Below are positions 62,290 through 64,000 of a stretch of 64,000 bases of DNA, piece after piece. The stretch is from positions 1-64,000 of the forward strand of contig QOQB01000006.1 of the NCBI GenBank assembly GCA_003331305.1, given 5' to 3'. Both the position numbers and the translations under genes were made by a program. Within the stretch, counting starts at the first letter, position 1. Each line of letters opens with the position of its first letter. The notes beneath the pieces are model-generated. The model was not told the origin of the DNA, ran no database searches, and saw nothing but the letters and a program-made list of their open reading frames with translations. Source of the DNA: Flavobacteriales bacterium. Its GTDB lineage: Bacteria > Bacteroidota > Bacteroidia > Flavobacteriales > Flavobacteriaceae.

Positions 62290-62319
62290 TTGCGATTTAT
62301 ATGAGCTATTGTATATTTG
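62290..62319 (+). promoter_or_regulatory. Promoter of metK-metY
   Basis: TTG at 62290-62292, a 19-nt spacer and TATATTTG at 62312-62319. A transcript starting about 6-7 nt later would begin at the first base pair of the riboswitch. Confidence 0.65.
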
Positions 62320-62325
62320 CAACCA

Positions 62326-62378
62326 CAGAGGAAGGATTTGACTGATTGCAACCTCTCAAAAAAACTGCTAAAACAGCT
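62326..62378 (+). promoter_or_regulatory. SAM-II riboswitch
   Basis: P1 is AGAGG (62327-62331) with CCTCT (62352-62356). Its loop carries GATTTGACTGATTGCA, matching the SAM-II consensus loop (GATTTaaCcgtaTTGCA). It is followed by an A-rich joint and TGCTAAAA, the conserved 3' strand that forms the pseudoknot. It sits right after the promoter and before metK, which makes S-adenosylmethionine. Binding of SAM should lower metK and metY expression. Confidence 0.85.
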
Positions 62379-62423
62379 TGCTTTTGATGAGTACAATCGG
62401 TCTCTATTCTTTACAAAAGCAAG
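62377..62423 (+). promoter_or_regulatory. Start-codon-proximal hairpin, candidate expression platform
   Basis: CTTGCTTTT (62377-62385) is the exact reverse complement of AAAAGCAAG (62415-62423). The 9-bp stem would cover the bases just before the metK ATG at 62427, and its 5' arm starts where the SAM-II pseudoknot strand ends. Confidence 0.5.
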
Positions 62424-62426
62424 ATT

Positions 62427-63674
62427 ATGTCATATTTTTTCACATCAGAATCAGTAGGAGAGGGTCACCCAGACAAGGTAGCAGACCAAGTTAGCGACGC
62501 ACTTTTAGATTACTTTATTGCTTTTGACCCAGCCAGTAAAGTTGCCTGCGAAACATTAGTTACCACGGGACAGGCCATCATTGCAGGTGAGGTTAAAAGT
62601 AAAACTTATCTCGACTTACAAACCATTACACGAAATACCATAAATCACATAGGGTACACTGAAGATGCATACCAATTTTCTGGTGATTCATGTGGAGTTA
62701 TATCACTTATTCACGAACAGTCTGCCGACATCAATCAGGGCGTAGAACGTGAAGAGGACAAACATCAAGGGGCAGGTGACCAGGGGATTATGTTTGGTTA
62801 TGCAAATAATGAAACTGAAAACTACATGCCGTTAGCACTTGATATTGCACATAAGATTATGCATGTTTTGTCAGATTTTAGAAGAGAAAAAACACAAATT
62901 CCGTACCTAAGACCCGATGCCAAATCACAAGTTACCCTAGAATACAGTGACGACCACAAGCCGCTGCGCGTTGATACTATAGTGATTTCTACCCAGCACG
63001 ACGCTTTTGATACAGACGAGGCTATGTTAGCTAAAATTAGAAAAGACCTAATCGAATTGGTCATTCCTAAAGTTGTGTCAAGCTATTCCAAAGAAATTCA
63101 AGGCTTGTTTGGAAAAGATATTGCGTATCATATCAATCCGACAGGGAAGTTCGTTATTGGAGGTCCTCACGGCGATACTGGATTAACAGGGCGTAAAATT
63201 ATTGTAGATACATATGGCGGAAAAGGTGCGCACGGCGGCGGTGCATTTAGCGGAAAAGACCCGTCCAAAGTGGACAGAAGTGCCGCGTATGCTGCTCGCC
63301 ACATTGCCAAAAATTTGGTAGCCGCCGGGATATGTGATGAAGTTTTAGTGCAGTTAAGCTATGCTATTGGAGTAGCTGCGCCAACATCGATTTTTATCAA
63401 TACGTATGGCACAGCAAAAACGAATCTTAACGATTCCGAAATTGCTGAAAAAATTTCCAAGTTAGTTGACTTAACACCATACGGTATTGAGCAGCGTCTA
63501 AAACTCAGAAACCCCATATATTTTGAAACCGCAGCCTACGGACACATGGGCAGAACACCCAAAATCGTAAAAAAATCATTTGAGTCTCCCTATAATGGTC
63601 GTATAGACTGTGAGGTGGAATTATTCACTTGGGAGAAACTCGACTTGGTAGAAACATTCAAAACACAATTTTAA
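62427..63674 (+). CDS. metK: S-adenosylmethionine synthetase
   Basis: 415 residues. The ATP/methionine site [11 protein letters not shown], the family signature [12 protein letters not shown], and the phosphate loop [15 protein letters not shown] are intact. It makes SAM from methionine and ATP. It is preceded by a SAM-II riboswitch and followed 9 nt later by metY, so supply of SAM and of methionine precursors is controlled together. Confidence 0.98.
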
Positions 63675-63683
63675 TTATACATT

Positions 63684-64000
63684 ATGAGTCAATCTAAATT
63701 TGCTACAAAAGCCCTTCACGAAGGGCACGATGTAACCAAAACACAAGGAACACGTGCGGTACCATTGTACCAATCTACTTCTTTTGTTTTCAACAACGCC
63801 GATCACGCTGCTAACCTTTTTGCACTTGCAGAGCCAGGCTACATTTACACAAGATTAAACAACCCAACAAATGATGTTTTAGAACAGCGTATGGCAAGCC
63901 TAGAAGGCGGTATTGCAGCTGTGGCTACATGTTCTGGAACAGCAGCGGCCTCTACTGGAATTCTAACCTTTTTAAAGGCTGGCGATCACATTGTATCTTC
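63684..64000 (+). CDS. metY: O-acetylhomoserine sulfhydrylase family (3' end outside window)
   Basis: The first 105 codons of a Cys/Met-metabolism PLP enzyme. The start SKFATKALHEGHDVTKTQGT with PLYQSTSFVFNNADHAANLF, GYIYTRLNNPTNDVLEQRMA and the PLP phosphate region ATCSGTAAAS is characteristic of O-acetylhomoserine aminocarboxypropyltransferase. It makes homocysteine from O-acetylhomoserine and sulfide. The PLP Lys lies outside the window. It is cotranscribed with metK. Confidence 0.9.
   Translation, partial: MSQSKFATKALHEGHDVTKTQGTRAVPLYQSTSFVFNNADHAANLFALAEPGYIYTRLNNPTNDVLEQRMASLEGGIAAVATCSGTAAASTGILTFLKAGDHIVS

Follow-up and report, generated by a model that had tools for sequence, protein, structure and literature searches.

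A SAM-II riboswitch before metK in a member of the Flavobacteriaceae and its probable strand-exchange platform at a start site without Shine–Dalgarno pairing

The question raised by this locus is how a SAM-II riboswitch could act on translation in the Bacteroidota, whose ribosomes, to our knowledge, make no use of Shine–Dalgarno pairing. The window analyzed here (the whole stretch of 64,000 nt from a contig of a marine Flavobacteriales bacterium, with all features below on the forward strand) ends with metK, which encodes an S-adenosylmethionine synthetase of 415 aa with three S-AdoMet_synt Pfam domains (62427–63674), followed after a gap of 9 nt by a metY-like gene for a Cys/Met metabolism PLP enzyme (63684–64000, truncated by the window end; PF01053, Cys_Met_Meta_PP, E 1e-26). 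These domain matches bear out the gene order, metK and then metY, that had been predicted after the leader, and the two genes are probably co-transcribed. The original prediction delimited the leader as 62290–62426. The leader elements do lie inside this region, but its start falls in a probable Bacteroidota-type promoter (TTG ... TAnnTTTG, 62290–62319, with the TTG at 62290 and TATATTTG at 62312–62319), and the TAnnTTTG element occupies an equivalent position before the aptamer in relatives; transcription therefore probably starts near 62325, downstream of the predicted boundary. A candidate leader peptide from an ATG at 62388 was rejected, as its frame is lost in relatives (L131 and others read GATTAC there).

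By its sequence, the aptamer is a real and ordinary SAM-II. The SAM-II long-loop family RF01726 matches 62322–62381 over its full length (positions 1–60 of 60; cmscan, 71.5 bits where the gathering threshold is 44, E 7.4e-12), and this leader of metK is the sole match to the model in the assembly searched. The predicted membership in SAM-II is thus upheld, although the model that reaches threshold is RF01726 and not RF00521, as had been anticipated. Every standard pair of the P1 stem and of the CUG/CAG pseudoknot with its UGCUAAA strand is present in the RF01726 alignment, with P1 (AGAGG/CCTCT, 62327–62331 with 62352–62356), the aptamer loop GATTTGACTGATTGCA (62335–62350), and the conserved strand TGCTAAAA (62366–62373) at the places predicted for them; the P2 pseudoknot pairs CTG at 62342–62344 with CAG at 62374–62376. 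In leader L105, ACAG with CTGT replaces ACTG with CAGT. The downstream genes, metK and the Cys/Met enzyme, are of the SAM and methionine metabolism expected for SAM-II.

Between the aptamer and the start codon lies a second stem, whose 5′ arm CTTGCTTTTG (62377–62386) begins at the base directly after the pseudoknot strand and whose 3′ arm CAAAAGCAAG (62414–62423) covers positions −13 to −4 of metK, ending 3 nt from the ATG. This stem had been foreseen as adjoining the pseudoknot strand and covering the region before the ATG, and both features hold; its length is 10 bp rather than 9. Folded alone, the hairpin reaches −13.6 kcal/mol, a value equaled by 2 of 200 shuffles. A lone fold is thus only moderately improbable by chance, and it is conservation that settles the reality of the hairpin. 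Across 28 distinct arm pairs from relatives, 93.2% of cells contain an intact stem pair, compared with 80.1% in shuffles, and the covariation score is 0.322, as against 0.083 when shuffled (0 of 500 as high) and at most 0.075 in slid controls. Five of the 10 stem pairs show compensatory change on both sides, in keeping with the covariation that had been proposed as a check: pair 1 occurs as GC, CG, AU, UA, and GU, and pairs 9 and 10 each as AU, UA, GC, and CG, while single cases among close relatives include the innermost G-C becoming U-A (L134) and the fourth pair changing from G-C to A-U (L145 and L146). In these counts CTTT and AAAG served as anchors for the arms, because whole-leader MAFFT alignment displaced the 5′ arm of the window's clade by 1 base; the four anchor pairs are invariant and therefore uninformative for covariation.

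The sampling behind these comparisons differs between sets. The 21 hairpin leaders of the family set were selected for having the stem. Sixteen close relatives, from marine Flavobacteriaceae and unclassified Bacteroidetes assemblies, were retrieved from named genomes through MetK similarity alone and so were not selected for it; the hairpin stands 2–4 nt before the ATG in all 16 of these with a readable leader (L131–L135 and L137–L147; one mismatch in L140). Across hairpin leaders the loop varies from 23 to 38 nt while the arms are retained, and the 3′ arm lies 2–8 nt from the ATG in nearly all carriers. In a quick and poorly resolved MetK tree with one long branch (L013), the hairpin leaders cluster, with L004 and L006 apart.

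The hairpin had been described as separate from the aptamer, and on this point the original prediction does not stand: the hairpin loop contains a segment predicted to base-pair with the SAM-binding core. This anti-aptamer, recognized from leader folds, duplex tests, and conservation, comprises CAATCGGTC (62394–62402) and ATTCTTT (62406–62412), and its target in the aptamer core comprises GAAGGAT (62331–62337) and GACTGATTG (62340–62348). The resulting duplex has 16 bp and −17.7 kcal/mol in the window leader, where 6 of 3000 loop shuffles are equally good; all pairing energies come from nearest-neighbor folding, which represents neither pseudoknots nor SAM. In the minimum-energy fold of the whole leader the aptamer is absent, with GACTGATTG paired to CAATCGGTC and GAAGGAT to ATTCTTT. 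Close relatives retain CAATCRGTC in the loop, the remainder of which diverges.

When the loop alone is offered to the core, the 36 hairpin leaders give a mean of −18.2 kcal/mol, against −9.6 for shuffled loops (sd 0.41), and the anti-aptamer exceeds chance (z below −1.64) in 30 of these 36 related leaders; kinship is not fully corrected in the shuffle and permutation tests. A permutation of aptamers among 136 leaders indicates that, on average, an anti-aptamer pairs better with its own core variant (0 of 5000 permutations as good), but this test is tree-free and confounded by relatedness, and we accordingly place more weight on the loop-only test and on single variant cases. In L102, which has a variant core, GGAATAATTTGGTC pairs with GACCAAATTATTCT over 14 bp, and cases such as L102 and L112 are hard to explain otherwise. 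The anti-aptamer is weak in one subclade (L007 and L144–L147), where the duplex reaches −11 to −12 kcal/mol, no better than shuffles, and the hairpin is kept.

Since the anti-aptamer pairs with the SAM-binding core, the aptamer together with the start hairpin, on the one hand, and the core:anti-aptamer duplex, on the other, constitute alternative folds. The 16-bp helix and the closed hairpin would hardly coexist, as position 62413 alone would have to bridge the longer helix. The leader thus presents two mutually exclusive conserved pairings, one of them over the metK start, as expected of strand exchange. In the folding calculation, holding the aptamer in its bound form lowers the predicted mean unpaired probability of the start region (−18 to +3) from 0.62 to 0.45 in the 36 hairpin leaders (p 6e-9), with reduced accessibility in 31 of the 36; the change is small in the other 100 family leaders (0.58 to 0.53). 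The case for these structures is strong, and from them we infer both a response to the ligand and the level at which control is exerted. On the evidence of sequence comparison and folding models, we consider it likely that this SAM-II acts through a strand-exchange platform on a translation start without a Shine–Dalgarno sequence.

The proposed mechanism would follow the order of the elements in the transcript, where the aptamer is succeeded by the 5′ arm, the anti-aptamer, the 3′ arm, and finally the ATG. Because the anti-aptamer would emerge ahead of the 3′ arm, it would have time to invade an unliganded aptamer. When SAM is scarce, the anti-aptamer would pair with the free core over 16 bp, keeping the hairpin open, the start accessible, and metK on. 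With SAM bound, the core would be locked in its pseudoknot and the anti-aptamer left without a partner, such that the 10-bp hairpin could close; it would then take up the A-rich 3′ arm, reducing 30S loading on metK and on the metY-like gene. The net effect would be ordinary feedback, with SAM turning off SAM synthetase. Initiation in F. johnsoniae needs low structure near the start and upstream adenines rather than a Shine–Dalgarno sequence (PMC6847099), which makes a hairpin over −13 to −4 a plausible block.

A different level of control is conceivable. SAM-II platforms in alpha-Proteobacteria are frequently terminators (PMC2258182), and either the hairpin or a ribosome-free leader might stop transcription when SAM is bound, intrinsically or via Rho. 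A run of six T residues does occur at 62435–62440, within metK; however, it begins 11 nt beyond the stem, in coding sequence, and a scan of the leader that allowed loops of 3–8 found no intrinsic terminator, that is, no GC-rich stem with an immediate U run. The 3′ arm, moreover, keeps within 2–8 nt of the ATG in nearly all carriers, which implicates the start site. Transcription attenuation therefore seems unlikely to us. Direct occlusion, the usual description of SAM-II (PMC10907184) and the arrangement of the Sargasso Sea metX SAM-II, where the ribosome site lies concealed within the pseudoknot, is the least probable reading: the last base of the pseudoknot strand, 62376, is 50 nt upstream of the ATG, so that the strand leaves the ribosome site outside it and contains no Shine–Dalgarno sequence usable in Bacteroidota.

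It is also conceivable that two independent elements merely adjoin here, namely a SAM-II aptamer and either a constitutive start hairpin or an inverted repeat that binds a protein or serves as an operator. The subclade of L007 and L144–L147, with its persisting hairpin and weak anti-aptamer, would fit such an arrangement. Against it stands the complementarity to the core that 30 of the 36 leaders carry in the loop, and the variable spacing of the arms and the joint base changes in both of them are unlike a DNA operator; we regard independence as quite improbable, if somewhat less so than direct occlusion. The strand-exchange platform remains the preferred reading, and the original prediction is supported both in the SAM-II identity of the aptamer and, with the covariation proposed as a check, in taking the hairpin at the start site as the output.

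SAM-II was found in 283 of the 299 genomes surveyed from the window's family, the Flavobacteriaceae, and 121 of the 129 family leaders read, as delimited by covariance-model coordinates, stand before metK. A class-wide survey, in which reverse-strand loci were parsed in part, recovered SAM-II in 16 of 119 sampled genomes. Most family leaders carry a core-complementary strand after the aptamer. The start-site hairpin is limited to a subset, and distant leaders that lack it still keep an anti-aptamer, which indicates that the hairpin is not the family's sole output. It may be that all Flavobacteriaceae drive SAM-II through a core-attacking anti-aptamer, with outputs that differ by subclade (the start hairpin in some, a GACG-N4-CGTC hairpin in others); we see the odds of this generalization as evenly balanced. 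If it is true family-wide, a previously undescribed, Shine–Dalgarno-independent riboswitch logic would extend across the Flavobacteriaceae.

Several further features of these leaders were observed. About 20 hairpin-less family leaders (including L059, L081, L094–L098, L103, L106, L111, L113, L114, L124, and L125) contain the small GACG-N4-CGTC hairpin; its 3′ arm shares sequence with the beginning of the anti-aptamer CGTCAAATC. Four leaders (L005, L032, L035, and L051) place SAM-II upstream of a queF-like gene (preQ0 reductase; PF14489 in L005), which is unusual as a SAM-riboswitch target, and L050 places a match of 68.8 bits before the gene of a DUF6580 membrane protein. A second SAM-II copy stands before a Cys/Met PLP enzyme gene in L027 and L055, with a similar anti-aptamer (AGTCAAATCTTTTCTC in L027). 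In Bacteroidales metK leaders from Parabacteroides and its kin (L168, L173, L181, and L187), a downstream strand such as CGTCAATTC is complementary to GAATTGACG, a stretch that runs from immediately upstream of the aptamer into its 5′ end, and is possibly a different switching strand.

The locus offers a concrete design for translational riboswitching without a Shine–Dalgarno sequence, its strands named and backed by compensatory changes, and it widens the range of SAM-II beyond its usual role in direct occlusion. The aptamer, the metK or met gene context, and the phylum are shared with the Bacteroidetes SAM-II long-loop riboswitches defined in 2010 (RF01726; PMC2864571). The 60-position model of that family stops just past the pseudoknot, however, and the anti-aptamer and start hairpin of the window fall outside it. 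No description of a platform with these two elements was found in the open-access literature, the supplement of PMC2864571 lying outside the scope of the search, and the output part appears to be undescribed. The SAM-II riboswitches of Sinorhizobium meliloti metA and metZ likewise combine this aptamer with feedback on methionine and SAM genes, by means of a predicted terminator at metZ and a pseudoknot that hides the Shine–Dalgarno sequence at metA (PMC9373788); the window leader differs in having a separate hairpin on a start without such a sequence and a strand that competes for the core. In sequestor/anti-sequestor translational riboswitches, as here, coverage of the start depends on which of two mutually exclusive pairings forms (reviewed in PMC10907184), but the platform in the window uses a SAM-II aptamer, carries the competitor inside the sequestor loop, and acts without a Shine–Dalgarno sequence.
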